Source: Acidocella aromatica (GTDB lineage: Bacteria > Pseudomonadota > Alphaproteobacteria > Acetobacterales > Acetobacteraceae). From it: a DNA stretch of 39,737 nt. The position numbers were made by a program, and so were the translations under genes. This document shows positions 6,892-22,314 of this stretch, piece by piece (the stretch's first letter is position 1; each line of letters begins with the position of its first letter). The notes below the pieces were generated by a model. It saw only the letters and a program-made list of their open reading frames with translations, was not told where the DNA came from and did not search any database. The stretch is from assembly GCF_014201825.1 (NCBI RefSeq), contig NZ_JACHFJ010000018.1, positions 1 through 39,737 of the forward strand. The letters run 5' to 3'.

Positions 6892-7958
6892 CAGCGCGCC
6901 TCGTACCAGCCCTTGGACACCGTCACGAGCTTGACCACCAGCAACATCACCGGCACCTCGATGAGGACACCGACGACGGTTGCCAAGGCCGCCCCGGATT
7001 CGAACCCGAACAGGCTGATGGCGGCAGCCACCGCCAACTCAAAAAAGTTCGACGCACCGATAAGCGCCGAAGGGCAGGCGATATTGTGTTTCTCGCCAAC
7101 GGCGCGGTTCAGCACATAGGCCAACGTCGAATTGAAGAAGACCTGGATGAGGATCGGCACGGCCAGCATAACGATGACCAGCGGCTGCCTCAGGATCGCC
7201 GCCCCCTGGAAGGCGAAGAGCAGCACCAGCGTCAGCAGCAGGGCCGCGATCGACCACGGCCCGATCTTGACCATGGCGGCGTCAAAGGCCGCCTGTCCCT
7301 TGGCAAGCAGGCGCCAGCGCCAGAGCTGGGCGAGGATGACCGGGATAACGATGTAGAGCGCCACCGAGGTAATCAAGGTGCCCCACGGCACTGTAATGGC
7401 CGAAATCCCCAGCAGCAGCCCGACGATGGGCGCGAAGGCGAAGACCATGATGGTGTCGTTCATGGCGACCTGGGACAGGGTGAACAGCGGATCCCCGTTG
7501 GACAGGCGGCTCCACACGAAAACCATGGCCGTGCAGGGTGCCGCGGCCAGCAGGATAAGTCCGGCAATGTAACTGTCGATCTCGCCCGCCGGCAGCAGCG
7601 GGCGAAACAAATGCCCGATGAAGAGCGAGGCCAGAAGCGCCATGGAGAATGGCTTGACCAGCCAATTGACGAAGAGCGTGACGCCAATGCCCCGGACATG
7701 CCGCCTGACCTCGTGCAATGCACCGAAATCAACCTTCACCAGCATCGGGATGACCATCACCCAGATGAGCAGGCCGACGGGGAGATTGACCTGGGCGATT
7801 TCCATCCGGCCAATGGCCTGGAATAATCCGGGCGCCACTTGGCCGGCGAAAATGCCGGCGACGATGCACAGGAAAACCCAGACACTCAGGAAACGTTCAA
7901 AAACGCTCATCGGCGCGCCTGCGGCCACTTTCGCGGTAACTTCACATTGGGCAGACAT
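6891..7958 (-). CDS. acr3: Acr3-type arsenite efflux permease
   Basis: A 355-residue integral membrane protein with about ten hydrophobic segments. It shows the family stretches [40 protein letters not shown] and [14 protein letters not shown]. Cys142 in APCTAMVF corresponds to the cysteine essential for arsenite transport in Acr3. It exports arsenite formed by the arsenate reductases encoded just upstream. The N-terminus from 7958 has an AAGGAG ribosome site six bases upstream; an internal Met at residue 17 (MSVFERF) is another possible start. It follows arsC by 9 bp and overlaps arsH by one base. Confidence 0.95.
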
Positions 7959-9095: not shown

Positions 9096-9446
9096 TTATA
9101 TGTTCAATTTGTCTTGAACGAGGGACGAGTTGTCGCAGGTACCAACACCGCATGCAGCCGCGTCTCCCTGGCAGCAATTTTCTGTCAGATAGGCCAGAAG
9201 GGCATTCATGGCCGGGTATTCGGCGGCATAGATTAACGAGCGCCCCTCCCGTCGAAACGTCACCAAGCCGGCGTGGCGAAGCTGGTTGAGGTGAAACGAG
9301 AGGGTATTACCAGGCACACCAAGCCGCTCAGCTATCTGGCCGGCAGGCAACCCATCCGTCCCAGCTTGCACCAGCAAACGAAACACATCCAGGCGGGAGT
9401 CCTGGGCAAGCGCCGCAAGAGCCGCGACAGCCCTATTCTTTTCCAT
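9096..9446 (-). CDS. arsR: ArsR-type arsenite-responsive repressor
   Basis: A 116-residue ArsR/SmtB winged-helix protein. The DNA-binding helices are in LPAGQIAERLGVPGNTLSFH, followed by the wing VTFRREGRSLIYAAEY. The classical ELCVCDL metal site is absent; instead Cys91, Cys92, Cys99 and Cys104 sit near the C-terminus, like the Cys-Cys type arsenite site of Acidithiobacillus ferrooxidans ArsR. It should repress its own operon until arsenite binds. It is the first gene of the operon; a dyad operator lies directly before its start codon. No Shine-Dalgarno sequence precedes the ATG at 9446. Confidence 0.93.
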   Translation of the reverse strand: MEKNRAVAALAALAQDSRLDVFRLLVQAGTDGLPAGQIAERLGVPGNTLSFHLNQLRHAGLVTFRREGRSLIYAAEYPAMNALLAYLTENCCQGDAAACGVGTCDNSSLVQDKLNI

Positions 9447-9447
9447 T

Positions 9448-9480
9448 ATTCGAATATATTGGAATCATAGTATTTTGCAA
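9448..9480 (-). promoter_or_regulatory. ars operon promoter and ArsR operator
   Basis: On the minus strand, TTGCAA (9480-9475) and TATATT (9458-9453) form a -35/-10 pair with a 16-bp spacer. The near-perfect dyad ATTCGAATATATTGGAAT (9448-9465) covers the -10 region, as expected for a repressor operator. The predicted start of transcription falls on or next to the arsR ATG at 9446, which has no ribosome site, so the mRNA may be leaderless. Confidence 0.6.
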
Positions 9481-10090
9481 GTGGGTGTACCAAGCGAAGC
9501 AGAAGCTCGTCTTGTGCGAGATGGGGCCGGACTAACGAGTAGATCTGGTTTAGGGGGCCAAGCCCTCATCACCCACACCTAAGCGGGTTGGGCTCGGCAT
9601 AGGACGTCATCCGGTACCACCCGGTATTCCTTGACCTTCCCGCCCAGCAACTCGGTGGTCGGCACGCCACACCTCCCTGGCGCCCCACGCGGCACCCCGG
9701 TTGAAGGATTGGATCAAGCTTTTCACGATGTTTGGCTGGACAGGAGCATAGGCCATCAGGTTCGGGATTTCGAGTTACATTGCCCTAAGCCTGCCCTAGG
9801 GTTCTAGAACGCCAAAAGCCATCCGAGGGTGGATTTATGTAGCTGATTTGGTTTGATTTTTTGGTTGCGAGGGCATGCAGCCACTCATACCGAACAAGGG
9901 TAATCCTCAGCAGACGTAGTTCAGCTTAAGTATCACCTGACTTGGCATACACCACGCCCCAAGCGACTGGCGTCAGGGACATGACCAAGCATCCATTCAA
10001 CCAACGTGCCAACAATGACCTCAAAGGCTGCTCGAAAATGGCTCGCCAAAGTCGGAGCGCAAATATTTTATCTGGCAGGCCTGTTACAGA
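9481..10090. other. Gene-free region between ars promoter and helicase gene
   Basis: No intact gene is seen in this 610-base stretch. On the minus strand, codons from about 9665 to 9579 read PTTELLGGKVKEYRVVPDD and then run to a stop; this faintly resembles the N-terminus of some tyrosine recombinases (TxELLGGKV) but is far too short to be sure. There is an imperfect hairpin GGTTGC/GCAGCC at 9863-9882 and the short palindromes CCCTAGGG and TTCTAGAA near 9794-9810. It could be the scar of an island boundary. Confidence 0.3.
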
Positions 10091-13000
10091 TCACACATGC
10101 AATTGTGCTACCAATCCGAGCACAGGGAAGTGTACCACGAGATCGATGACACTGAACCCCTGAGTACGGAGGGCATCGCGGTAAAGGCGCAACTGCGGCA
10201 GGTAGCTTTGAGCACGCGCGGCGGCGGCGGCGCCAGGGTAGCTCTTGTGGTCGATGATCACCACGCCACCGGCATGGCGGATCAGCGCATCAAGGCGCCC
10301 ATGCACCTCCTCGCCCGAGGACAAACGAACTTGCACCGGCCATTCCCGGATGATCTCCGGCGCTTCATAGTTTGCCTGGGTATACGCCCAAAACCGGTCG
10401 GCGGCGGTCAGGCAATCCTCCACCGCCAAACCGCTCTGCCACACGCCTAACAGGCGTTCGGCAAGAGCCAGACGTTCGCTAAGCGGACGTCCCGGGTCAT
10501 CGGCGGCGAGAAAGCGGTGCAGCACCTCCCCGACTTCCTCGCGCGCGGCTCCTCCCCTATTAGTCAGCTGCTCACCCAGCCGGGTCAATGTGACCTTGGC
10601 TGCTGTTTCTCCCTCTGCGGTGCTGGGCGTCACGCGCAACGCCGGAAAGCTTGGCACCGCGCCACGGGGCCAAACGAGCCTTGTGATAGCGCCGGGGACG
10701 GGCGGCGTTTCCGGTTCGGTGGCTTTGATGCCTATCGTCTCAAGCTCCCCTGCCAGCCCTGGCGCAAAGCTATCGAGCCAAGGTGTCTTGGCAGGCAGGG
10801 CCAGAATCAGCATATCGCGCGCGCGGGTGACGCCGACATAGGCCAAGCGCGTCTCCTCGCGCTTCTGCCGTGCCTCCGCAGCTTTGAACAGCGCGGTTGC
10901 AGCGGCTTGCTCCACCAGGGGGACGCCTGCGCTCTGCCGGCCATAGGGCCAGGGCCAGTAGCGCACCCAGCGCCCGGTCAGCGGAGCCTTCGGATCCGGG
11001 GCGGCAATGTCGCTCTCCACGTTCACGCCAAAAGCGCGGGTCTCGAAGGTCTTGTCCAGTTGCGCCATCACCACCAGCGGCCATTCCAGCCCCTTGGCGC
11101 GGTGATAGGTGAGTATCGTGACCGCGTGTTCTGAGGCGGCCTCGGGCTGACCAGGAGCTATTTCAAGCGTATCCAGCCAGGCAATAAACCCGCCCGCAGT
11201 GGCTGCTTGGCGCAGGGAACGGCAATGGTCCTCGTAGGTCTGGGCGGCAGCACGCAGGGCCTCAAGATTGGCCAGCCGCTGCCGCGCCCCCGGCCAACGC
11301 GTGATGAGCGGCAATATTTCGGCGCGGGCTAAAGCCTCGTCTAGCGCCGCCAATGGGGGCAACCCACATGCGTCTTCAGGCGCATCGTCCAGCGCGGCCA
11401 CACGCGGCGAGGTGATGGTTTGTGCGCTCACCGCCTCGCTCAGCCAGTTCTGACCACTCAAATGCGCGATCTCGGCGGCGGCGAGCGTGTCGCGCGTATC
11501 GGCCAAACGGCGCAGGCAAGCCAGGGCCAGACGCACTTCCGGCGTGACCAGCAACCCATCGCGCTGCGCCGTCACCTCTACGCCATGTGCGTTCAACGCG
11601 GCGGCCAGTGTGGCGATGACTTTGTTGTCCCGGCAAAGAATGGCGATATCGCCCCCACGCACGGCGCGGACTATCCCGGTCTGCGGGTCCATGATCTGCG
11701 GGCGGTCCGGGGCGACGAGCAATGCGGCCACCTGCCCAGCCAAAGCGGCAAGGCGGTCACCTGCATTCTTGCCATCCAGACGCCAGCCCTGCACGGATGT
11801 GGGGGCATTGGCATAGTCTTTGCGGTACGGCTGCAACGCCACCACCTCTTTGGCCATGCCCTGCGCCCCGAAGATGGGCACGAACAAACTATTAGCGAAC
11901 TCGACCAGCGCGGGGCGCGAACGACGTGAGGTGGAGAGGATATTCTCTGGTTTAGGCGTGCCGCCCAAATGGGCGAGCATGGCGTCCATCAGCGCCGGGT
12001 CGGTGCCGCGAAACCCGAAGATCGCCTGTTTGGGGTCGCCCACCCAGACGCTCTTTTTCGCCAGCGCGCCGAGCCGCAGGAATAAAGCGAGCTGCAGCGG
12101 GCTGGTATCCTGGAACTCATCGACAAACAGCGTATGCAGCCGGGCGGAGAGTTCCTCGCGCACCTCCGCATTGGCCTCCAGCAGGCCGAGCAGGAGCGTC
12201 TCCTGATCGGTAAAATCGATCAACCCCGCCTCGCGCTTGTGCTCTGCGTAGTCGTCCAAAGCCTTGATCGCGGTATCGAACGCCGCGTTGACGATCTTCT
12301 CGAGGTCGGCGCGCAGGCGGGGGTGCCCGTGGTGCATCGCGGCGGCGGCGAGGATGGGGGCAAAATCCTCGCGCCTCTTGGCGCCGGGCGTGAGTTTGGC
12401 CAGACGTGCCCAATCGGCCCAAGCAGGATAGCGCTTTTCGCTCAGGGCAAAATGAGCGCCGGCCTCCTGCACGGCCTTGAGCGCCTTGCGTGTGCTATCG
12501 GTTTCCGCATCCAGATCCCAGCCTTTCGCCGCCTTGAGCAGACGCTCCATAGCCTTGAACAACGCGGTGTCCAGCGTCTCGGCATCGGGGGCGGGCTTGC
12601 CGAGCAGGGCCAACAGCCCATCCAGCGAGCGCTGGCGGCTAACCTCGAGGGCTTTCCCATTGAGGCCGTTGGCCCGCGCGGCGGTGACAATTTGCGACGC
12701 GGCCTTCTGCCAATCACCACTCCACGCCGCCTCGCCAGACAGGCCCAGGCGATAGGCGGCATCATGAGCCGCCTCCTCGCGCGTGGCGGCGGCGTTGGCG
12801 AGCACGGCGGCCAGCATCTGTTCAGCGCCCCCCGCCTCGAGCACGGTGAGGGCGGGAGAGAGCCCTGCCTCGAAGGCGAAGTCCCCGAGCAACCGCCCGC
12901 ATACGCTGTTCACGGTACCGATCAGCGCCTCGTGCAGCGGCATTTCGCTCATGCCCTTCGCGGCCAATTCCCCCTGCACGCGCAGCAGGATTTCGCCCGC

Positions 13001-13144
13001 GGCCTTCTTGGTGAAGCTGGTGGCCAACACACCCGCCACAGGCGCGGCTTCGTCGCGCAGGGTACGAATGATGTCTTGGGTAAGGCGGTAGGTCTTGCCG
13101 GCGCCCGCTCCGGCCGTGACGATGGTCAGATTATCCAGGCTCAT
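10091..13144 (-). CDS. AddA-like UvrD helicase fused to PD-(D/E)XK nuclease
   Basis: A 1017-residue superfamily 1 helicase. Walker A is AGAGAGKT (Lys17), motif II VDEFQD (Asp342, Glu343), motif III WVGDPKQAIFGFRG, motif V LTYHRAKGLEWPLVVM and motif VI RLAYVGVTRARD. The C-terminal RecB-type nuclease has GRLD (Asp952) and IIDHK (Asp965, Lys967), followed by a QLRLYRDAL helix, so both activities look intact. It resembles AddA of AddAB double-strand-break enzymes but is shorter than the usual 1150 or so residues. The start at 13144 overlaps the stop of the AddB-like gene as ATGA; a start five codons upstream is possible. Its partners here are the AddB-like nuclease, a WYL regulator and a tandem AAA+ ATPase, not the trxA/tsaE neighbours usual for housekeeping addAB in alphaproteobacteria. 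Role inferred: end resection or degradation of linear, possibly foreign, DNA. Confidence 0.88.
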   Translation of the reverse strand: MSLDNLTIVTAGAGAGKTYRLTQDIIRTLRDEAAPVAGVLATSFTKKAAGEILLRVQGELAAKGMSEMPLHEALIGTVNSVCGRLLGDFAFEAGLSPALTVLEAGGAEQMLAAVLANAAATREEAAHDAAYRLGLSGEAAWSGDWQKAASQIVTAARANGLNGKALEVSRQRSLDGLLALLGKPAPDAETLDTALFKAMERLLKAAKGWDLDAETDSTRKALKAVQEAGAHFALSEKRYPAWADWARLAKLTPGAKRREDFAPILAAAAMHHGHPRLRADLEKIVNAAFDTAIKALDDYAEHKREAGLIDFTDQETLLLGLLEANAEVREELSARLHTLFVDEFQDTSPLQLALFLRLGALAKKSVWVGDPKQAIFGFRGTDPALMDAMLAHLGGTPKPENILSTSRRSRPALVEFANSLFVPIFGAQGMAKEVVALQPYRKDYANAPTSVQGWRLDGKNAGDRLAALAGQVAALLVAPDRPQIMDPQTGIVRAVRGGDIAILCRDNKVIATLAAALNAHGVEVTAQRDGLLVTPEVRLALACLRRLADTRDTLAAAEIAHLSGQNWLSEAVSAQTITSPRVAALDDAPEDACGLPPLAALDEALARAEILPLITRWPGARQRLANLEALRAAAQTYEDHCRSLRQAATAGGFIAWLDTLEIAPGQPEAASEHAVTILTYHRAKGLEWPLVVMAQLDKTFETRAFGVNVESDIAAPDPKAPLTGRWVRYWPWPYGRQSAGVPLVEQAAATALFKAAEARQKREETRLAYVGVTRARDMLILALPAKTPWLDSFAPGLAGELETIGIKATEPETPPVPGAITRLVWPRGAVPSFPALRVTPSTAEGETAAKVTLTRLGEQLTNRGGAAREEVGEVLHRFLAADDPGRPLSERLALAERLLGVWQSGLAVEDCLTAADRFWAYTQANYEAPEIIREWPVQVRLSSGEEVHGRLDALIRHAGGVVIIDHKSYPGAAAAARAQSYLPQLRLYRDALRTQGFSVIDLVVHFPVLGLVAQLHV

Positions 13145-15678
13145 GCGCTGATCCCGCAAAGCGATGCGTAGTTACAGAAACGGCAAGGGGCTTCGATGGC
13201 GAGGCCGCGTTCATCTTCCGCGGGAGGCTCTATGCCTGCCGCCACCACCTGCCCGGCTTTCAGTGCCTTCAAGGCATCGGCGAAGTCGATCATGGCGCTT
13301 TGCCAGCAAGCAGCCAGATCGCCCCCCTGAACCTGGGCATCGGGGAAAGGATAAATGTCGGCCGCCAGCAGGCGCTGCTGGCGCAGCAGGTAGTAGGCGG
13401 CCGTTGCCCCCTTGCCGACGAGCCACGCATAGGCGGCCAATTGCAGCGCGGTGTTTTCCGAAAGGCGCGAGGCGTAATGCTTGGCCGAACTGGTCCATTT
13501 GGCATCCAGCACGAGCTTGCCCTTGGCGCCCTCGAACAACAGGTCCAGCCGTCCGCCTAGCGTACCTACCTGACCGGGTAAGGCGCGGGTGAAACTCTCT
13601 TCCGCTCCCACTAGGCGCAGTTTAGCGCTGGCCAGCTTGGCGGTGAGATCGGCCATCGCCTGGCTGATGCGCGTCCGCGCCCGCCCATAGAACGTGGCGT
13701 AATCGGGCTTGAGCAGCGGCGCGGCCATCTCGGGGGCCAGACGTTCGAACAAAGCTTGCGCCTTGGCGGCGGCATCAGTGGGGCTGGCGTAGCCATTGGC
13801 AAACACCTGATGCATCACCTCGTGCAGGAGCGTTCCCACCATCTGGTTGGGGCTGGGCAACGCGGCGGGGCCACGGGCATACAGCTTGGCCTTGTAGGAG
13901 AGGACCCAGGCCAGCGGACAGCCAAGCAGCTTCTCCAGGCCGGAAGGGGACTCCATTTCCCGCGGGCCGATCAGCTTGGCGGGTACGGCCCAGTCCCGCC
14001 GCGGGGCGGGCGGCATGAGGGGCGGCAGCCTTTCAGTGAACAGTTGCACCCCGGCGACCATGCCACCAGCTTGCAGCTCTTGCGCCTCCGTCCAGGCGCC
14101 GCGCAGAGAAGCGCCAAAGCATCCAGCCAGCAGGCCGAGCAGCGGATGGGGCTGGGCGGCCTCTTCACCGCCGCGCGGGCTGACGAGGATCAAGCGCTCG
14201 GAGGTCAGACTGATGGCACGAACCAAACCCAGGCGCGCCCGCTTGGGCGCCAGATCATTATCGGGCTCCAGCCCGCGCCCACGCATCCAGGCATGCTCAT
14301 GCAGCCGCCAGGGCGAGGCCGCTTGCGTGGCGGCCGGACCCAGCCACCAGAATGTTGCACTGGCCGTGTCAAGGCGCGCGGTGGGGCTGGAGAAAGCGCG
14401 CCAGGGTGCTGCCTCCGGTGCGGCAAGAGTAACATCGCCCGAGGCCACCGTTTCCAGCATACGCCCCAACAGCACCGGGCTCAGCCGCTCGATGCCGCTA
14501 CGAGCGATTGCGCGTTCCAGGGCATTGGCCGGGCCAGCTTCCTCGGGGCGTTGGCGGGCCGCGGCCCAATTGGCAATCCGCCGGCAGACGGAGAGAATGG
14601 TTGCGGCGGGCAGGTTGTCCCTCGGGGAAAAGCGCATGGCGGGCAGCCAGTCGGCGATATCCTGTACCCGCCGCTGGGCCCGTTTCTCGCGCTCCTGTGG
14701 TTCGATGCCGCATGTCTCATCGGTGGCCAACTTGGCCAAACGCGCGGCCTCGACGGCTTCGCGGTACTGCACGCCCCCATGACCGGGATGGGCGCTAATC
14801 GCATCGATCAGGAAGCGCGTGGCCCCACCCAGCGGATGCTCAGGCAGTTGTAGAAATTCCAGGGCCGCGGCCGCATCGAATGGTTCCCAGTGCAGGGCCA
14901 AGGCCAAAGAAAGCAGCTGCGCCCCCACCGTGGGCCCCGTGAGCGCCGCGGCACGGGGCAGATGCCGGGCGCGCAGCAACAACGGCAAGGGGGAAGCATC
15001 TCCCCCGAGCAGCGCGGTGTTGAATGGCAAGCTGGGCAGCATGGTGGAGATAATGTCGGCACAATCGGCACCGCCATCCCCGGTAAGCAGCGTCAGGCTG
15101 CCATCCCCCTGCCATGTGGCGGCTTCACCGGTGACAAACCAGCGTTGCAGCGCACCGAGATCGCCCTTGGCTTGAGTTGCGGGCAGGACATGAGGCGTGG
15201 CGTTCAAGCGGGTAAGGAGGTTGCGCCAGAGCGGCGGCCAAACCTCCAGCGGCTCCAACAGCATGAGGCGCGGCAGAGAGGCCGCCAAAGGCGCGTTCAG
15301 CAGCGTGTGCAGGATGTCGGGCTGCCCAACGGGCAAAGGCGGCAGAGCGGCGAGATCAGCCACGCGCGGCGGCATGGAAGCATCCACCGTACCATCCCAT
15401 CCGGCCAAGCACAGATCATCACGCAACCAAAGCACGCGCCGCGCCGTGGCCCAGGGATCAACCGCGAAAGAAGCTGACCAGAACCGCCCCGGCAGCGCCG
15501 CCAGAGCGGCATAAGCGGCGGCGATGCGCTCCGACTCGGGGGCGGGCCTGCACTCCTGCCCCAGCCATTGGCCGAGCAGATCCAGCAGGCCAAGCGGCCC
15601 GGCGATGGCGGTGAGCGGCGGCAAGCCAAGCGGCGCTGGTGCGCCGTCCAGCCCGGCGCCGAAGATCAGGGTGGTCAT
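13141..15678 (-). CDS. AddB-like PD-(D/E)XK nuclease with Fe-S cysteines
   Basis: An 845-residue protein. The C-terminal nuclease domain has GRLDLLFEG (Asp712) and LVLDAKW (Asp725, Lys727), then ENTALQLAAYAWL. Four cysteines match the Fe-S staple of AddB and Cas4: Cys587 in LLGCPLAW, and Cys832, Cys835, Cys841 in CRFCNYASLC, with the exact C-x2-C-x5-C spacing. The N-terminal 550 residues correspond to the degenerate helicase-like part of AddB; I see no Walker A motif there. It probably pairs with the AddA-like protein encoded 4 bp overlapping downstream, giving a helicase with two nuclease sites. Its own start at 15678 overlaps the stop of the WYL gene by 4 bp. It is about 150 residues shorter than typical alphaproteobacterial AddB. 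Confidence 0.85.
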   Translation of the reverse strand: MTTLIFGAGLDGAPAPLGLPPLTAIAGPLGLLDLLGQWLGQECRPAPESERIAAAYAALAALPGRFWSASFAVDPWATARRVLWLRDDLCLAGWDGTVDASMPPRVADLAALPPLPVGQPDILHTLLNAPLAASLPRLMLLEPLEVWPPLWRNLLTRLNATPHVLPATQAKGDLGALQRWFVTGEAATWQGDGSLTLLTGDGGADCADIISTMLPSLPFNTALLGGDASPLPLLLRARHLPRAAALTGPTVGAQLLSLALALHWEPFDAAAALEFLQLPEHPLGGATRFLIDAISAHPGHGGVQYREAVEAARLAKLATDETCGIEPQEREKRAQRRVQDIADWLPAMRFSPRDNLPAATILSVCRRIANWAAARQRPEEAGPANALERAIARSGIERLSPVLLGRMLETVASGDVTLAAPEAAPWRAFSSPTARLDTASATFWWLGPAATQAASPWRLHEHAWMRGRGLEPDNDLAPKRARLGLVRAISLTSERLILVSPRGGEEAAQPHPLLGLLAGCFGASLRGAWTEAQELQAGGMVAGVQLFTERLPPLMPPAPRRDWAVPAKLIGPREMESPSGLEKLLGCPLAWVLSYKAKLYARGPAALPSPNQMVGTLLHEVMHQVFANGYASPTDAAAKAQALFERLAPEMAAPLLKPDYATFYGRARTRISQAMADLTAKLASAKLRLVGAEESFTRALPGQVGTLGGRLDLLFEGAKGKLVLDAKWTSSAKHYASRLSENTALQLAAYAWLVGKGATAAYYLLRQQRLLAADIYPFPDAQVQGGDLAACWQSAMIDFADALKALKAGQVVAAGIEPPAEDERGLAIEAPCRFCNYASLCGISA

Positions 15679-16643
15679 GCCGTGCGCATCGCAATGGCGG
15701 GCTGGAACAGAGCCTTCAGCCCGGCAGGCGCGACGACCTCGACCGCCTCACCCCAGGTGTAGAGATGCCAGGAGAGCTCCAACATGCCGCCGCAGGTGAA
15801 GCATACGAGCAACGAACCATCAGCCTGCGGGGTGGTGGTCTGGGTCGGGTGGAATTGCCATTCCGCCGCATCCTCCGCGGCGCTGGAGGCGAAGCGCAGC
15901 ACCACCTCCTGCGCCGGCTCCTGGAACACACCGAAGGAGCGTGAGGCATAGGCAGCGAGGTCGAAAGATTGGGGGCTGAACCCGTCCTCAAGCACATTGA
16001 GATTGTCCAAACGGTCCAACCGCCAGAGGCGCACATGCGTGCCCGCTTCGGTATGTGCCACCAGATAGGCGCGGCGGCCATAAAGCACGCCATAGGGGCA
16101 GAGCACGCGTGCGCTCGCCTCGGTGGCGCCGGCCTGCCGGTAGCGGGCGGAGAGTTTGCGAAAGCCCAGCACAGCCTCGCGGATCATGCCTAGCATCTCG
16201 CGGTCCAGCTTCTGCCGCGGCCCAGGATGCATGGCCACGCCCTCGGCTTGCAGCAACGCTTCGATATCCGGTTCCACTTTACGCAGCGTTTCGGGCGCGA
16301 ACATGGTGCGCAGGCAAGTTAGAGCCTCGCGCACATCGCCGGCACGGGCATCGTCGCCACTCGCGGCGAGATCGCGTGCCAAGGTCTCCAGCGTGCCCAG
16401 CGTGCCATGGCTGGGCGGCACTTGCGGAATCGTGCGCGGCGGCAAGCGCCAATGGCGAACTCGATTTTCATCTTCTTTATAGCTCAGCTCTGGAAGCAGG
16501 GTGGAAATTTGCTCGCGCAAACGCTCAACCGTGCGGCGGGAAACGCCAAGCTCGTCGCGCATCTGTGTCATGGTAACGCCGTAGCGAGAAGTGGATAAAA
16601 GCTGTACCAAACGCAGCAGGCGGGTCGAGGGATCGTAGCGCAT
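15675..16643 (-). CDS. WYL-domain transcriptional regulator with N-terminal HTH
   Basis: A 322-residue protein. The N-terminus (MRYDPSTRLLRLVQLLSTSR) has the helix-turn-helix of DeoR/YafY-like WYL proteins, with a second helix pair in MTQMRDELGVSRRTVERLRE. The central WYL core reads YGVLYGRRAYLVAHTEAG and then VRLWRLDRLDNLNVL, followed by a C-terminal extension of the WCX type (VVLRFASSAAEDAAEWQF). WYL regulators sense nucleic-acid ligands or nucleotides and commonly control defence operons such as BREX and CBASS. It is the second gene of the cassette, 41 bp after the AAA+ gene and coupled to the AddB-like gene by ATGA. Its place inside the operon suggests autoregulation. Its operator is not identified. 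Confidence 0.88.
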   Translation of the reverse strand: MRYDPSTRLLRLVQLLSTSRYGVTMTQMRDELGVSRRTVERLREQISTLLPELSYKEDENRVRHWRLPPRTIPQVPPSHGTLGTLETLARDLAASGDDARAGDVREALTCLRTMFAPETLRKVEPDIEALLQAEGVAMHPGPRQKLDREMLGMIREAVLGFRKLSARYRQAGATEASARVLCPYGVLYGRRAYLVAHTEAGTHVRLWRLDRLDNLNVLEDGFSPQSFDLAAYASRSFGVFQEPAQEVVLRFASSAAEDAAEWQFHPTQTTTPQADGSLLVCFTCGGMLELSWHLYTWGEAVEVVAPAGLKALFQPAIAMRTA

Positions 16644-16684
16644 GGGACAATGATCGTTCCGTTTTCAGAGGATGGCAATCCAGC

Positions 16685-18811
16685 TCACATCAGGCGACCA
16701 AAACCCATGCCGCGCGCGGGGCCGAGGCGGCTTTCCATTTCGGCGGCGAGCAGGGAGAAGGCGCGGGCGGCATCGACCGAGTCGTCGAGCAGGACCATGC
16801 GCTTGGCCACGCGCGAGAAATCCGCGGGCGTCAGGCGGTCGAGTGTCGCCAGCCGTTCCGGGGCGGGCGCAGTGAAAGTCTTGGCAAAAAGCCGCGCGGT
16901 TTGCGCCGGCGCGAGATAATCAAAGCGCACATGCAGCAAGAAGCGGCGCAGGCTGGCGGCATCCAGCCCCTCGGGCAGATTCGTGGTGCATACGAACGGT
17001 TGCGGATGCGTCTCCATCCAGGTCAACATTTCATTGACCTGGGAAACCTCCCAGTTCCGCACCGCGCGCTCGCGTCCGCCAAGCAGGGAGTCGGCCTCAT
17101 CAAAGATCAGGAACTTGCCTTCGTCGCGCGCCTGGGCAAAGGCGGCCGCGATGTTACGCTCGGTCTCACCTACATAGCTGCCGAAAATATCCGAGCCGCG
17201 CTTTTGCAGCACACCCAGCCCCATTGCGGCGGCCAGATGCCGGGCGAAGGCGCTCTTCCCCGTGCCTGGCGGACCGGACAGCAACAGCGAGACGCCACGC
17301 GGCGCACCGGGGCGCGTGAGGCGCGCCACCAGGGCTGCGAGATCGAGATCAGCGCGGCTATAGGCCGGATCGTAAATTCCTGGCAGCTCGGCAGCCTCAG
17401 GGGCGGGCAGCACGCCATGCCCCATGGCCTTGGCCAAGCCGCGGGCCACGCGGGTGGCAGTGCGAGCTTCGCCACCCGCCAGTCGGGCCGCGCGCAAGGC
17501 ATTGCGCGCCACCGCCGGCGCGGTGGGGATCAGCCCGGCGAGATCCTGCGCCATGGGTTCATCCAACGCCACGCCTTCGGCCTCGGCCAACTCGCACCAC
17601 AACTCGGCGCGGCGCGAACGCTCGGGCAGCTTCACCTCCAGGCACAGACTCATGCGGCGCAACACGGCGGACGAAAAGGCCGTGATATCGTTGGCCGCCC
17701 AGATCACCGGTACGCGCGCGCTTTCCATTAGCCTGTGGATGAAGATCTTCGGCGTCGCGCTACGTTCAAACGGGCTGGTGCGGAAGATGTCTTCTGCCTC
17801 GTCGAACAGATACAGCGCCCGTTCACCACCGCTCACGCGCTGGGCCATCAACAGGTCGTTCATACGCTCGCTGCGATTGGGCTCCTCGCCGTGCGCGTCG
17901 GCCTCGCCAATGACATAAAGCGGGGCGCCAAGCAGCTTGGCCAGCGTGGCGGCGAACTCGGTCTTGCCGGTGCCGGGCGGGCCGTAGAGCAAGATATGCA
18001 CGGCGGCCTCGGTGCCTTGCGCATCGAGCACGGCACCCAGCAGCGCCCGGGCAATCTCCGAATCCTCGCCCAAATGGCTGAAGGCCGTCCAGGGCAGATG
18101 AGCCTGGCGCGGGGCGCCAAGCAGCTGGGCGCGCATGCTCTCGCCGGTTTCACCACAGGCATAGATCAGGCTGCGCAACCGGTCGGGGAGCATGATGTCG
18201 CCATCTTCATCAAGCCGGATGCTGCCGGAGACGGTAAGCGCGCCGCTGGGCAAGAAGCGCTTGGCCACATCGGCTTGCGGCTGGTTCAGCATGATGGCGA
18301 AATTCTCGCTGTAGCGGCGCAGGCAGCTGGTGCGCCCACGCGCCATGGAGAACAGATCAAACAGGCGCTCGCAATCATTATCGGTGCGGTAGCGGAAGAT
18401 GATGCCCAGCAGGGCGGCATCCATCGCCTCCAGCCCCAGGGCACGGCACACGGCGGCAAGCCCGGCGGCAGCGGGGCCAGTGGTTTCACGCAATTCCTGA
18501 TGGCGTCGGAGCAGCACCTTACGCAGTTTCGCCCATTGCAGGGGTGTGACGGACGTCGGCTGCCTCCCGTTCAGCCGCAAGCCTTCGAACTCTTTCTCCC
18601 CCACCCCGAAGCGCACGCGCTTGGAGGCCAGCCAACGGATGAATTGCGGCACTTCCGGCTGGGTATGGTCGAGCGCCGTCATGGTGTTGAGGGCGTAACC
18701 GAGCAGAGCGGCGGTTTCACCAGGGCAATGGGAGAAGCGCGAGGGGGGGGGCTCGTCGGCCTCCAAATCCAATTCCAACTCCTCGAGCGCGCTGCGGAAG
18801 CTGCGGGTCAT
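16685..18811 (-). CDS. Tandem AAA+ ATPase
   Basis: A 708-residue protein with an N-terminal region of about 270 residues of unknown fold and two AAA+ modules. Module 1 has Walker A GPPGTGKTEF (Lys283) and Walker B LYLFDEAED (Asp337, Glu338). Module 2 has Walker A GPPGTGKSAF (Lys519) and Walker B FLIFDEAD (Asp571, Glu572), with the pore-like GSYVGETERN segment between. The layout is Cdc48-like, suggesting a hexameric remodelling motor. It is the first gene of the cassette with a strong AAAAGGAGATCG ribosome site before ATG 18811. The N-terminal part may recognise the substrate or partner. Such ATPases occur as switch or unfoldase parts in several defence systems, but its exact job here is unknown. 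Confidence 0.85.
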   Translation of the reverse strand: MTRSFRSALEELELDLEADEPPPSRFSHCPGETAALLGYALNTMTALDHTQPEVPQFIRWLASKRVRFGVGEKEFEGLRLNGRQPTSVTPLQWAKLRKVLLRRHQELRETTGPAAAGLAAVCRALGLEAMDAALLGIIFRYRTDNDCERLFDLFSMARGRTSCLRRYSENFAIMLNQPQADVAKRFLPSGALTVSGSIRLDEDGDIMLPDRLRSLIYACGETGESMRAQLLGAPRQAHLPWTAFSHLGEDSEIARALLGAVLDAQGTEAAVHILLYGPPGTGKTEFAATLAKLLGAPLYVIGEADAHGEEPNRSERMNDLLMAQRVSGGERALYLFDEAEDIFRTSPFERSATPKIFIHRLMESARVPVIWAANDITAFSSAVLRRMSLCLEVKLPERSRRAELWCELAEAEGVALDEPMAQDLAGLIPTAPAVARNALRAARLAGGEARTATRVARGLAKAMGHGVLPAPEAAELPGIYDPAYSRADLDLAALVARLTRPGAPRGVSLLLSGPPGTGKSAFARHLAAAMGLGVLQKRGSDIFGSYVGETERNIAAAFAQARDEGKFLIFDEADSLLGGRERAVRNWEVSQVNEMLTWMETHPQPFVCTTNLPEGLDAASLRRFLLHVRFDYLAPAQTARLFAKTFTAPAPERLATLDRLTPADFSRVAKRMVLLDDSVDAARAFSLLAAEMESRLGPARGMGFGRLM

Positions 18812-18850: not shown

Positions 18851-18912
18851 CGCGCACGGCCTGGGCCGGCGCAATCAATTTAAAAAAAGTTTTGGCCTTC
18901 CGGCCGTGCGCG
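18851..18912 (-). terminator. Hairpin with T-tract between the HEPN gene and the AAA+ operon
   Basis: On the minus strand GGCC-GGAA-GGCC (18905-18894) is followed by AAAAC and seven Ts (18888-18882), an intrinsic-terminator form after the HEPN gene. The same bases also take part in a longer alternative stem: CGCGCACGGCC (18851-18861) is the exact reverse complement of GGCCGTGCGCG (18902-18912). The two structures are mutually exclusive, so an attenuator is possible. It suggests that the AAA+ cassette has its own promoter. Confidence 0.5.
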
Positions 18913-18920
18913 ATGAATAC

Positions 18921-18955
18921 GCCTCACATCCGTCAAAAACGGACGCATGTGAGGC
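18921..18955. terminator. Strong hairpin downstream of the HEPN gene
   Basis: GCCTCACAT (18921-18929) pairs perfectly with ATGTGAGGC (18947-18955), and inside it CCGT pairs with ACGG around CAAAA. No T-run follows on either strand within a few bases. It lies 30 bp past the HEPN stop codon and probably contributes to transcription stop or mRNA 3-prime-end protection. Confidence 0.45.
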
Positions 18956-18984: not shown

Positions 18985-19647
18985 TCAGAGGATGACAGGG
19001 TAATGCGCCCTGCCCCAGGGCAGGGCGGGATGATTCATCATGAGGTCGATGAACAAAGGAATCAGAAAGGTCAGGATCGCCGCGCCGTCGCGGACCTGAG
19101 ATCGGTTGACCGTGCTGTTCCAGGTGGCGCCACCATGCATCAGTTGATTCCGCAGCACGTAGAGTCTGTCGAACAGGGTAGTTAGTACCGCCAGCGTATT
19201 CTGCTGCGCCAGGGCCTGTTGCGCCTGCTGGCGGGCGGCGGCGAATTTCTGCTCCCAATCGTCATATCCGAACAACTGGTTTTGGTGGTTCCAAAAGCGA
19301 TGGTAGACGAACTTATTGTCAAGCAGGAGACGAATGGGGCCCGAAAACCGGTGCCATAACGCATTATAGATCCGCTTTTCGGTATCAAGCGGCACCAGCT
19401 TGCCGAAATAATCCCTGAACAAGCTGCGTGCCGCGTTCGGTGTTGCCTCTCCCAGGTCTTCGGCATAGGCTGCGTTGAAGGCTATCCAGAGGAAAATGAA
19501 ACGGGCATCGTTATCGTCACCGCATTGCTCCGCCCTATCCAGCCAGCTCAACGCCCGGTGCACACGCAGAGACAGATTCTCATGAAACCCATCACGCAGG
19601 GCGCGCTGCTTGGTCTTCAGCGAAGTGTAGTCAGGCAAACCAGTCAT
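18985..19647 (-). CDS. HEPN-domain protein (putative ribonuclease) with RNxxxH motif
   Basis: A 220-residue all-helical protein. It has RFIFLWIAFNAAYAEDLG near residue 55 and, at residues 166-171, RNQLMH, the R-N-x3-H motif that forms the active site of HEPN ribonucleases; GGATWNSTVNRSQVRDGAA follows. I recognise it as a conserved stand-alone HEPN family found in many proteobacteria, function untested as far as I know. HEPN RNases often act as toxins or effectors that cut RNA during phage infection. The start at 19647 (MTGLPDYTSLKTKQRALRDG) has GGAG ten bases upstream; an upstream start at 19803 would add 52 unconserved residues, though an excellent AGGAGGTG lies 20 bases before it. It is on the same strand as the AAA+ cassette but separated by 173 bp and two hairpins. 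Confidence 0.7.
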   Translation of the reverse strand: MTGLPDYTSLKTKQRALRDGFHENLSLRVHRALSWLDRAEQCGDDNDARFIFLWIAFNAAYAEDLGEATPNAARSLFRDYFGKLVPLDTEKRIYNALWHRFSGPIRLLLDNKFVYHRFWNHQNQLFGYDDWEQKFAAARQQAQQALAQQNTLAVLTTLFDRLYVLRNQLMHGGATWNSTVNRSQVRDGAAILTFLIPLFIDLMMNHPALPWGRAHYPVIL

Positions 19648-20001
19648 GTCAGGCGTGCTCCGGTCGGTAGTGATCGAGACCTGGGCAAATTCGCACGGTT
19701 CACGCCTCTCTACCAGGAGGGGGCGTTTTGGCTGAGAAGCTCCCCGGGCACAAACAAGACTAAAGACGTTGTCATGCTGAAGAAGCAGGCAAGTGCTAAG
19801 CATGATCGTTTTTCTGCTGTAGCACCTCCTTTTTCTAAAATAGTTTATCTCAATACAACTGGTTTAGCAGGCTGTTAAAAAACATTTTTCAAGGAGCTTA
19901 ATGACGAAACAATAATTCGCACAGACGGTCATTAGCATAATATTGCTTCTTTGAAGCCTGTTCGAAAATTTTTTGTTCATTCGTCCATGCGGCGTGATCG
20001 C
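19648..20001. other. AT-rich leader of the HEPN gene up to the IS66 end
   Basis: This 350-base stretch is clearly more AT-rich than its surroundings. On the minus strand it holds an excellent AGGAGGTG near 19827-19820 with no start codon at a normal distance, and an in-frame ATG at 19803. Promoter-like hexamers such as TTGTAT (near 19861) are present but not convincing. The AT-rich part runs to the IS66 end near 20001. No tRNA or other gene is seen. Confidence 0.4.
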
Positions 20002-20082
20002 GGTATCCATCCGGCGTGAACCGCCTGCCGCGACTTCGTAGTGAGCGCTCATAACGGCGCTTGTATGAGCGTCATTATGAGC

Positions 20083-20526
20083 ATGGGACGGTTTGGGATG
20101 GAGATTTTATCTGGGGTTGAGCGCCGGCGTCGCTGGCGGTTGGAGGAGAAGCTTCGGATTGTTACTGAGGCTGAGGCGTCTGGATCCGTGTTTGCCCATG
20201 TGGCCCGGCGTCACGATGTTTCTCGTGGTCAACTCTGGACATGGCGGCATCAGGTTCGCAGCGGAGAATTGGCTCCAACGCCGGTTGTGCCGGAATTTCT
20301 GCCCGTACGGGTGCTGGAGAGCGAAGGGAGCGCCGAGCGCCAGGTAAAATACGCTGATAAGCCGATGAGGGCGCCCGCGCCATGTGCGGCGCCGCCCGAG
20401 GCTCGAGCGGCGGAATTTGGTTCGGGCCGGATCGAGATCATCCTGCCGGATGGGACATGCGTGCGGGTCGATGACCAGGTGGGGACTGTAGCGCTGCGCC
20501 AGGTGATGGTGGTGCTGCGCGGATGA
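20083..20526 (+). CDS. tnpA: IS66 accessory protein TnpA (helix-turn-helix)
   Basis: A 147-residue protein from this start. VERRRRWRLEEKLRIVTEAE and VFAHVARRHDVSRGQLWTWR form the helix-turn-helix characteristic of IS66 OrfA, and the C-terminus ends with the conserved IEIILPDGTCVRVDD segment. It is needed with TnpB and TnpC for transposition. The exact start is unsure: in-frame ATGs lie at 20041, 20065, 20077, 20083 and 20098. MGRFGMEILSGVE at 20083 looks most like the family. It overlaps tnpB by 4 bp. Confidence 0.85.
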   Translation: MGRFGMEILSGVERRRRWRLEEKLRIVTEAEASGSVFAHVARRHDVSRGQLWTWRHQVRSGELAPTPVVPEFLPVRVLESEGSAERQVKYADKPMRAPAPCAAPPEARAAEFGSGRIEIILPDGTCVRVDDQVGTVALRQVMVVLRG

Positions 20527-20870
20527 TTCCGATGGCCTCTGGGGCGCGGGTGTGGCTGGCGTCTGGCCCTACCGACATGCGCCGTGGCATGCGCGGGTTG
20601 GCGCTGCAGGTGCAAGAAGGGCTTGGGCGCGATCCGTTCGCGGGCGATGTTTACCTCTTCCGCGGCCGCAGCGGTTCGCTGCTCAAGGCGCTCTGGCATG
20701 ACGGCGTTGGCCTGTCACTTTATGCCAAGCGGTTGGATCGTGGAAAGTTCATCTGGCCGCAGACCGTGGACGGCGTCGTGGCGCTCTCACCCGGACAGAT
20801 GGGTTATCTTCTTGAAGGCATTGATTGGCGGAATCCGCAGCAAAGCTGGCGCCCGCAAGCTGCGGGATAG
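20523..20870 (+). CDS. tnpB: IS66 accessory protein TnpB
   Basis: A 115-residue protein with the canonical IS66 Orf2 sequence: VWLASGPTDMRRGMRGLALQ, DPFAGDVYLFRGRSGSLLKA and LLEGIDWRNPQQSW. It looks intact. Its function in transposition is unknown beyond being required in IS66 elements. The start overlaps the tnpA stop (ATGA). Confidence 0.92.
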   Translation: MIPMASGARVWLASGPTDMRRGMRGLALQVQEGLGRDPFAGDVYLFRGRSGSLLKALWHDGVGLSLYAKRLDRGKFIWPQTVDGVVALSPGQMGYLLEGIDWRNPQQSWRPQAAG

Positions 20871-20939
20871 CTGGAATTTGTGTCGCTGGAGTGCTGAATT
20901 CTGTAGCGTGACGCTGCGGGTTTATGATTCTATCAGGGT

Positions 20940-22314
20940 ATGGATGTCGATCCTGCCGCACTGCCTGATGACATTGAGGCCCTGAAAGAGATCGCCCGCT
21001 CGGCGCTGGCGGCACTTGATGTTGCCCGAGCATCTGCCGCGCGAACGGATCGTTCTGCCGGGCCCCGATGCCTGCACATGCTGCGGCGGCAAGCGGCTGG
21101 CCAAGCTGGGTGAGACGGTGACCGAGACGCTGGAGAGCGCACCGCGCCAATACAAGGTGCTTCAGTATGTCCGGGAAAAATTCACCTGCCGCGATTGCGA
21201 GACGATAAGCCAGACGCCGGCACCGTTCCACGTCATCCCGCGCGCCTTCGCAGGTTCCAGCCTGCTGGCGATGATCGCGCATGAGAAATTTGGCCAGCAC
21301 CAGCCGCTCAACCGCCAGTCTGAGCGCCTCGCTGCCGAAGGTGTTGCGCTCAGCGTCTCGACCTTGGCCGATCTGGTGGGCGCCGCCTGTGTCGCGCTGG
21401 GGCCGGTGTTCCGGCACATGGAAGCCACCGTGTTGGCGGCCGCGCGCGTGCATGGCGGTGCCGGTGCTGGCGCGTGGCCAGACCGCGATCGCGCGCGCCT
21501 GGGTCTATGTCCGTGACGACCGGCCATTCGGCGGTGCCGGGCCGCCCTGTGCGGTATTTTACTACTCTCGAGACCGGAGCGGGATTCACCCACAGACGCA
21601 TCTGGCCCGGTACAGCGGTATCCTCCAGGCAGATGCCTATGGCGGCTACAACAAACTTTACGAATCCGGCCGCTCGCCCGGGCCCATCATCGAGGCTGCC
21701 TGCTGGTCACACGCGCGCCGGAAATTCTTCGAACTGGCCGATATCGCGAAGAACGCCAAGCGCAAGGCGCAGGGCCGCACGCCTGCCTTCATCGCGCCTA
21801 TGGCGCTGACCGCGGTGCAGCGGATCGACGCTTTGTTCGAAATCGAACGGGCAATTAACGGTAACCGGCCGCCGAGAGGTTGACTGTGCGCCAGGACCTC
21901 AGCGTCGGGCTCGTCGCCGATCTTGAGACCTGGATGCGGGTCGAGCGCGCCAAACTCTCGCGCCATAATGATGTTGCCAAGGCGATGGATTACATGCTTA
22001 CCCGCTGGGCATCCTTCACGCGCTTCCTGAGCGACGGGCGGATTTGCCTGAGCAACAACGCGGCGGAGCGCGCCATCCGCAGCCTGGCCCTGGGGCGCCG
22101 CAACTGGCTGTTCGCCGGCTCTGATCGCGGCGGGCAGCGTGCCGCAATCATGTACAGCCTGATTACAACGGCAAAAATGAACGGCATCGATCCACAGGCA
22201 TGGCTCGCCGACGTCCTCGCCCGTATCGCCAATCATCCAGCGCATAGGCTCGATGAATTGATGCCCTGGAATTGGACTGGGCCACGAACCCCGGCGGAGC
22301 ACCGCGCAGCATGA
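20940..22314 (+). pseudogene. IS66 transposase TnpC, broken by a deletion and two frameshifts
   Basis: The coding sequence is in four pieces. It starts MDVDPAALPDDIEALKEIAR at 20940. Near 21020 it jumps directly to PEHLPRERIVLPG in another frame, losing the usual leucine-rich and linker region of roughly 70-80 residues. It continues through the zinc-finger-like CTCCGGKRL and FTCRDCE to RVHGG near 21460. There a few bases are missing where HGDDTTVPVLA is expected, which removes the first catalytic Asp and shifts the frame. The next piece (VLARGQTAIARAWVYVRDD to INGNRPPRG) is shifted back near 21880, and the last piece carries the catalytic Glu region [11 protein letters not shown] and ends at 22314. 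It is certainly non-functional. Confidence 0.9.

Follow-up and report, generated by a model that had tools for sequence, protein, structure and literature searches.

The window analysed here, positions 1 to 39,737 of contig NZ_JACHFJ010000018.1 of Acidocella aromatica, carries a cassette of four genes that encode a tandem AAA+ ATPase, a WYL-domain regulator, an AddB-like nuclease, and an AddA-like helicase-nuclease. The main new result is that the WYL protein is a homologue of the Caulobacter regulator DriD and that a DriD-type site lies upstream of the first gene. We lean towards the reading that the cassette is an auxiliary AddAB-type operon for DNA-end processing, inducible by single-stranded DNA (ssDNA) or DNA damage under a DriD-type switch, with the tandem AAA+ protein as a partner. 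An initial annotation of this DNA had described the cassette as a candidate anti-invader system with a WYL regulator; the regulator is present, but it is a DriD homologue with its own type of site rather than a generic WYL protein. Neither this site nor a HEPN-type gene near the AAA+ gene had been listed (Table 1).

The WYL protein and its upstream site

The WYL protein matched the chains 9pfq and 8tp8 with E 8e-77 to 9e-77 over residues 1–313, that is, in full length, and PMC12340889 identifies 9pfq as Caulobacter DriD. Beyond the DriD-like chains, PafC (5e-8) was the only other match at E 0.01, and among WYL proteins of solved structure, DriD is the nearest to this winged helix-turn-helix-WYL-WCX protein. 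Its WYL and WCX domains scored above the Pfam cut-offs, with HTH_11 slightly below its own. The protein is a DriD homologue rather than a generic regulator and is predicted to be a DriD-type activator that would respond to ssDNA.

According to PMC12340889, the WYL domain of Caulobacter DriD binds ssDNA, after which the protein occupies its DNA site and activates transcription. The site is described there as a pseudo-palindrome with the consensus ATACGAC(X)7GTCGTAT that overlaps the -35 region at a fixed distance from the -10 element, and RNA polymerase is recruited. Among the targets named in that paper and in PMC4211646 are didA, bapE, recJ, dnaG, and a transporter operon.

A word shared upstream of AAA+ genes, TRCGTCC-N5-TGWCGYAT, had been spotted by eye before the published site was read; the common core word is TRCGWC-N7-GWCGYA. 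The window site sits inside a longer inverted repeat at about 18921–18955. By hand count, it agrees with the DriD consensus at 10/14 half-site positions, compared to 11/14 for the published didA site, and it is identical to the didA site at 18/22 positions. The spacing to the -10-like element is conserved: among 16 aligned sites, T is found at +8 in 11 and A at +9 in 14, and the didA promoter has C at +8 and A at +9.

We scored sites with a matrix of eight sites, each of which was omitted when its own locus was scored, and the window site, having been seen by eye, was not included. Six of the eight came from loci of the window's family, the site-bearing family loci outside the matrix being those of the window, G334, G340, G098, and G142:C85 (G and L numbers denote our genomes and loci). 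The window site ranked first over the whole window; it scored 21.5, whereas the highest score in 40 Markov-simulated windows was 18.4. Among the 19 family loci, a score of at least 17.0 near the AAA+ start was found in 11 of the 12 that are WYL-linked, and none of the seven WYL-less loci scored above 11.2, although these 11 and 7 loci are related and not independent; the one WYL-linked locus that missed, L052, lies on a contig that begins inside the AAA+ gene. All 68 AAA+ loci together, a mix of family, phylum, and plasmid matches that yields counts and not rates (the fragmentary matches of G026, G039, and G074 were excluded), gave a score of at least 14 in 17 of the 28 WYL-flagged loci versus 4 of the 40 others. 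Outside the family, the site is both weaker and more palindromic in some beta- and gammaproteobacterial loci and absent in others.

Further observations weigh against the assignment of the site. Several WYL-linked loci without a good site exist outside the family (including L128 with 7.8, L131 with 8.0, L132 with 6.5, and L136 with 11.2), as do loci that have a site yet are not WYL-flagged (for example, L134 with 17.1 and L202 with 16.7), and the sites of G334 and G340 are about 415 bp ahead of the AAA+ start. The core pattern is not rare, with four exact matches in the 2.88 Mb genome and 0.67 one-mismatch matches expected by chance in the window, and some loci that lack the AAA+ gene likewise reach scores of about 18 (L069 and L072 with 18.1 each, L204 with 18.4). 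A palindrome alone was therefore rejected as proof of a site, and the case rests on position, ranking, and the spacing to the -10-like element. With this evidence, we predict that the site at 18927–18948 and the -10-like element form an operon promoter of the DriD type.

A second inverted repeat at 18851–18912, with the arms CGCGCACGGCC and GGCCGTGCGCG and a T-rich stretch between them, lies between the predicted -10 element and the AAA+ start and is possibly a leader structure.

Table 1. Positions of the predicted promoter elements, the four cassette genes, and the neighbouring HEPN-type gene in the window
Feature	Position	Strand	Evidence or remark
DriD-type site ATGCGTCC-N5-TGACGGATG	18927..18948	-	first base 137 bp before AAA+ start
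-10-like element (GCGTATTCATC)	18912..18922	-	TA 8-9 nt past site
Tandem AAA+ ATPase, 708 aa	16685..18811	-	PF00004 in two stretches, motif words, 13-sequence alignment
WYL regulator, DriD homologue, 322 aa	15675..16643	-	PF13280 and PF25583; 9pfq/8tp8 chains
Accessory AddB-like nuclease, 845 aa, PD-(D/E)XK with Fe-S-type cysteines	13141..15678	-	PDDEXK_1, E 3e-23
Accessory AddA-like SF1 helicase-nuclease	10091..13144	-	UvrD N, UvrD C and PDDEXK_1, motif words, tree
HEPN-type protein, possible accessory	18985..19803	-	likely start ATG 19647; just upstream of AAA+

The four genes and the accessory AddAB pair

All four open reading frames (ORFs) are intact on the minus strand at the coordinates given in the initial annotation, and the Walker A and B sites, PD-(D/E)XK motifs, Fe-S cysteines, and superfamily 1 (SF1) motifs that it had read from the translations were confirmed by Pfam, motif words, and alignments. 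The ATGA overlaps that it had reported are also found, at both the WYL/AddB and the AddB/AddA junction, and the gap between the AAA+ and WYL genes is 41 bp, an arrangement in which the four genes would be transcribed jointly. As its frame overlaps that of AddB in this way, AddA most likely starts at ATG 13144 (1017 aa) and not at TTG 13159 (1022 aa).

The N-terminal region of the AAA+ protein, already noted as unrecognised, has no Pfam match over about 240 residues and is followed by two complete AAA domains with Walker A at residues 277 and 513 and DEAE/DEAD at 337 and 571. According to motif words and the 13-sequence alignment, both domains have sensor-type pairs of Asn and Arg; the word YVG, which we take to be a pore-loop word of the threading type, is found in the second domain only. 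With the AAA+ family profile, the best solved chains were of the NVL, AFG2, and CDC48/VCP types.

In AddB, the residues H619, D712, D725, and K727 and the cysteines 587, 832, 835, and 841 are invariant in a six-sequence alignment; among 12 relatives, Cys835 varies and is absent from both Brachybacterium proteins. The AddB profile gave nothing useful against solved structures, the best match being an Amy4 chain with E 0.0046. SF1 words and nuclease words were found in AddA. With the SF1 helicase motifs, two PD-(D/E)XK nuclease sites, and Fe-S-type cysteines in AddB, the pair has the features of the AddAB superfamily and is predicted to work like its members, as an ATP-dependent exonuclease on double-stranded DNA.

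In the genome, which comprises 2.88 Mb in 29 contigs and has a completeness rating of 100%, three matches to UvrD-helicase and four to PDDEXK_1 were found, and a second, normal addAB, for which the initial annotation had suggested a check, was found as a canonical addB–addA pair on contig 7 (C7:41943-46123). The contig-7 ORFs comprise 987 and 1135 aa, so that the window proteins are both shorter, as had been stated for housekeeping homologues in general. With TIGR02784, the alphaproteobacterial addA equivalog with a cut-off of 860.75 bits, the window AddA scored 143.6 and the contig-7 AddA 1056.6. The profile of the accessory AddB matched the genome's own AddB weakly and in the C-terminal nuclease part only (E 0.0006).

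A tree of 42 AddA sequences placed 26 accessory ones, including that of the window, on one side of a branch (SH-aLRT 99), 11 canonical ones in another group (SH-aLRT 99), and four from plasmids of Rhodobacterales and Sphingomonadales in a third (SH-aLRT 100); with a single UvrD row as the outgroup and long branches, the deep order is uncertain. For the canonical group, one locus in three was taken from 30 fetched loci and the genome's own copy was added; L091 was excluded by hand. These sequence comparisons place the pair in an accessory AddAB clade of its own, distinct from the alphaproteobacterial AddA that were sampled.

Partners, distribution, and neighbourhood

The order AAA+-WYL-AddB-AddA is the same in four of the ten AddB-positive genomes of the order, namely the window's genome, G334, G340 (where AddB is split over two frames), and G043. 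All four belong to the window's family, and the AddB identities to the window protein are 33–57%. Plasmids of Fuscovulum, Leisingera, and Novosphingobium have AAA+-WYL joined to a second AddAB lineage, and the Fuscovulum AddB of this lineage aligns to the window AddB profile in its C-terminal part only. In Paracoccus, an AddA relative is near AAA+-WYL on an unannotated record. Altogether, a clear AddA/AddB relative of the accessory type or of the second lineage was found within 9 kb in 8 of the 68 AAA+ loci, a count that leaves out weaker UvrD-type matches of the AddA profile in L138, L179, and L196.

Other findings speak against a fixed partnership. The remaining six AddB-positive genomes of the order have no AAA+ relative anywhere at E 1e-40 (one of them, G411, is 88% complete), and no such AddB was found in any of the 14 AAA+-positive family genomes tested with a profile that did detect AddB in the phylum search; in 8 of these 14, the WYL gene adjoins AAA+. 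As AddBA and AAA+-WYL are also found apart, direct cooperation is unproven, and we rejected a strict four-gene system, since both halves occur alone. The recurrence of AAA+ and WYL with AddAB, raised in the initial annotation, thus holds for three other family genomes and the second lineage but is not obligatory, and strict co-conservation is weaker than had been implied.

Other AAA+-WYL loci carry other nucleases: DUF2779 nucleases were found in G098, G062, Rhodoferax, Diaphorobacter, and Sphingobium, and a PLD/helicase set, which in Rhodoferax matches PDC-M27A/B/C, accompanies further loci.

Some single loci show variant arrangements. In G260 (L075, 6422-9959), a WYL gene and the strongest site seen (26.9, at 7400-7421) precede AddB pieces by 0.6–1.5 kb; these pieces lie at the contig end with the first one inverted, and there is no AAA+ gene. 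This locus may represent the system in minimal form, or it may be damaged or misassembled. In L085 (5939-10430) of a Spirochaetia bacterium, a different AAA ATPase of 559 aa with a partial IetA match is located directly upstream of AddB-AddA and is possibly an independent AAA partner of AddBA. Two genomes of one genus of gammaproteobacterial type (class inferred), G429 (L108/L183) and G595 (L113/L185), each have AddB-AddA, a helicase-type match, WYL, and a tandem AAA+ gene on a single contig, non-adjacent and within about 18 and 26 kb, respectively. In G648, which is outside the window's class, the accessory AddB-AddA of L111 (7473-14959) is preceded by a WYL gene and an ORF of 92 aa.

The accessory AddB is patchily distributed. 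It was found in 10/395 genomes of the order (E 1e-20), 14/398 of the phylum, and 3/21 of the same genus, with 18/21 lacking it. Plasmid records with it numbered 22 of 72,556, of which 17 are rated conjugative, and the phage collection gave one partial match covering 46% of the query. A named genome collection yielded 15 AddB loci, all with an adjoining AddA relative, in carriers including Acidocella aquatica, an Acidiphilium metagenome-assembled genome (MAG), Rhizobium, Afipia, Brachybacterium, a Spirochaetia bacterium, and a Victivallis MAG. Of the AddBA relatives found, that of G411 was the closest, with 70% identity.

In the window, the cassette is flanked by an ars-type cluster on one side and by the HEPN-type gene and an IS66 element on the other, the IS66-family pieces (TnpA-like, TnpB, DDE) lying to the right of the cassette at 20041-21883. 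The HEPN-type protein had no Pfam match at E 0.01; its relatives on plasmids are annotated as "HEPN domain-containing protein" (26 plasmid records match, five were aligned), and it contains the word RNQLMH, which we presume to be HEPN-like. HEPN relatives are near the AAA+ gene in 8/68 loci including the window, with four of these eight having supplied the two profiles. In Leisingera L128, the HEPN gene adjoins the WYL gene and a gene for a TM0106-type RecB-like nuclease. In G872, a genome of the same genus, the right flank from 22565 on is kept at about 87–90% identity, and the sequence before it is unlike except for a 136-base repeat; no clean empty site was found there, the main matches of the left flank being on another contig. 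At both window ends, words of about 95 bases recur at other contig ends of the assembly.

PADLOC, run on ten proteins from six AddBA loci, all picked by eye, found Shango SngA/B/C in the Afipia locus and GajA and AbiEii in G370. Acetobacter thailandicus and Phenylobacterium have TRIP13-type ATPases, Rhizobium has an Orf5/HEC-06-like protein and part of a type III restriction enzyme, and the Spirochaetia locus gave only partial IetA and TRIP13 matches. According to PLSDB annotation, AddBA of Agrobacterium vitis has a CBASS cyclase, AbiEii, and a WYL gene nearby, that of Sinorhizobium meliloti a WYL gene, and that of Bosea AbiE and multiubiquitin genes; no WYL gene is annotated in the AddBA regions of Bradyrhizobium, Methylocystis, Rhizobium beringeri, and Lysinibacillus. 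It counts against a defence role that these neighbours were chosen by eye and are not a census, and that no known defence system was found among the window proteins scanned (five with PADLOC, 17 with Pfam, the right third of the window lying outside the scan).

Proposed mechanism, alternatives, and known systems

In the mechanism that we propose, ssDNA that arises during conjugation or from phage or broken DNA would activate the WYL protein at the promoter described above, which would turn on AAA+-WYL-AddB-AddA and also raise the level of the WYL protein itself. AddA and AddB would then unwind and degrade linear duplex ends, and the additional ssDNA would sustain induction in a feed-forward manner. 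The tandem AAA+ motor may remove or remodel DNA-bound protein, or it may gate the nuclease. DriD-type ssDNA sensing has so far been a DNA-damage response in Caulobacter; if our proposal is true, ssDNA sensing and DNA destruction would be directly linked, and a feed-forward loop is predicted. That the cassette is a specialised, regulator-linked AddAB-like machine, as the initial annotation had suggested, is supported by the second addAB of the genome and the recurring partners; the combination under which it would have been ordinary recombination repair, a sole addAB without conserved partners, does not apply. Because of the patchiness, the plasmids, and the hand-picked defence neighbours, from which the anti-invader role is still drawn, the target is in our view probably invading DNA, with damaged host DNA the less likely one.

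The best of the other explanations, which we regard as possible but doubtful, is an SOS-independent DNA-repair module in which the DriD-type regulator raises a spare AddAB and an AAA+ remodeller for host double-strand breaks. AddAB usually acts in recombination, and AAA+-WYL without AddBA shares ordinary-looking neighbours in G045 and G125, one of them of the dienelactone-hydrolase type. In Caulobacter, DriD likewise governs checkpoint and repair-related genes. However, a canonical addAB is already present in the genome, AddB is found in 3/21 same-genus genomes, an IS66 element adjoins the cassette, and relatives reside on plasmids, while some are close to defence genes.

It is less likely still that AAA+-WYL and AddBA are unrelated mobile modules brought together by repeated chance or by hitch-hiking on islands. 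Each half is indeed found without the other, and in G411 the 3.4 kb of contig ahead of AddBA contain neither AAA+ nor WYL, with no AAA+ relative elsewhere in the 88%-complete genome. Against this stand the identical gene order in four genomes with AddB identities of 33–57% to the window, the second AddAB lineage joined to the same AAA+-WYL pair, the ATGA overlap of the WYL and AddB frames in the window, and the WYL gene and site that precede the AddB pieces of G260 without AAA+.

Similarly improbable is a BrxR/CapW-like repressor that is lifted upon damage. PMC9122601 describes a defence island with a WYL repressor that binds to inverted repeats, but the best full-length match of the window protein is the activator DriD, and the spacing between the site and the -10-like element is DriD-like. 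An ordinary housekeeping addAB, with which the pair shares UvrD and two PD-(D/E)XK domains, was rejected and has a negligible chance in view of the score far below the TIGR02784 cut-off, the canonical second copy, the separate clade, and the 18/21 same-genus genomes without such an AddB.

Our preferred reading, an inducible auxiliary AddAB operon under a DriD-type switch, combines traits of known systems without coinciding with one of them. The window regulator resembles Caulobacter crescentus DriD, as described in PMC12340889 and PMC4211646, in its full-length homology, the half-sites with a 7-bp centre, and a similar layout from site to -10, but its gene follows the site as part of the putative operon and is linked to AAA+ and AddAB. 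The pair resembles AddAB in its adjacent genes, with AddA as an SF1 helicase and nuclease and AddB as a PD-(D/E)XK protein with Fe-S-type cysteines, whereas it is shorter, accessory, in a clade apart, and far below the addA equivalog cut-off. In BrxR-type islands (PMC9122601), a WYL gene also adjoins a mobile operon; the window differs from these in its DriD-type subfamily, its activator-type site geometry, and its AddAB cargo. UvrD-Cas4 fusions in defence contexts likewise combine a RecB-type nuclease and an SF1 helicase, with WYL regulators at several loci, but in PMC5704561 they are one fusion protein found mostly by type III restriction–modification genes, and the window has a two-subunit AddBA with AAA+.

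Named systems were considered and rejected, as PADLOC, NCBIfam, and Pfam gave domain-level or partial matches only for the four proteins. The second AAA+ domain resembles IetA of IetAS (95.5 bits versus a cut-off of 510), AddA matches parts of the GajB models of Gabija in PADLOC, the WYL protein matches general WYL models there, and in Rhodoferax an AAA+-DUF2779-WYL set is followed by PDC-M27A/B/C genes. Among the PADLOC families listed for five window proteins (25 of 49 for AddA), there was no IetS, no PDC-M27, and no GajA. A search of the open-access literature, with subscription papers and supplements outside its reach, found no description of the gene set.

More tentatively, these loci could represent a proteobacterial family of modular, ssDNA-triggered immune systems, in which a core of tandem AAA+ and DriD-type sensor-activator is combined with exchangeable nuclease cargoes and the ssDNA product of the nuclease is the inducer, which would result in a self-amplifying attack on invading DNA. 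The cargoes of such a family would comprise the two AddAB lineages, DUF2779 RecB-like nucleases, small PD-(D/E)XK proteins, and the PDC-M27 set, and a DriD-type site plus a WYL gene by a tandem AAA+ gene is offered as a search rule for further ones. HEPN and ADP-ribosylglycohydrolase proteins would be its accessories.

A gene of the latter type is located between WYL and AddB or near AAA+ in L127 (15835-17268, fused to a DSP-phosphatase domain), L128 (15672-17240), and L171, and in L069 a 189-aa ORF after AddA (9297-9866) matches the ADP-ribosylglycohydrolase profile.

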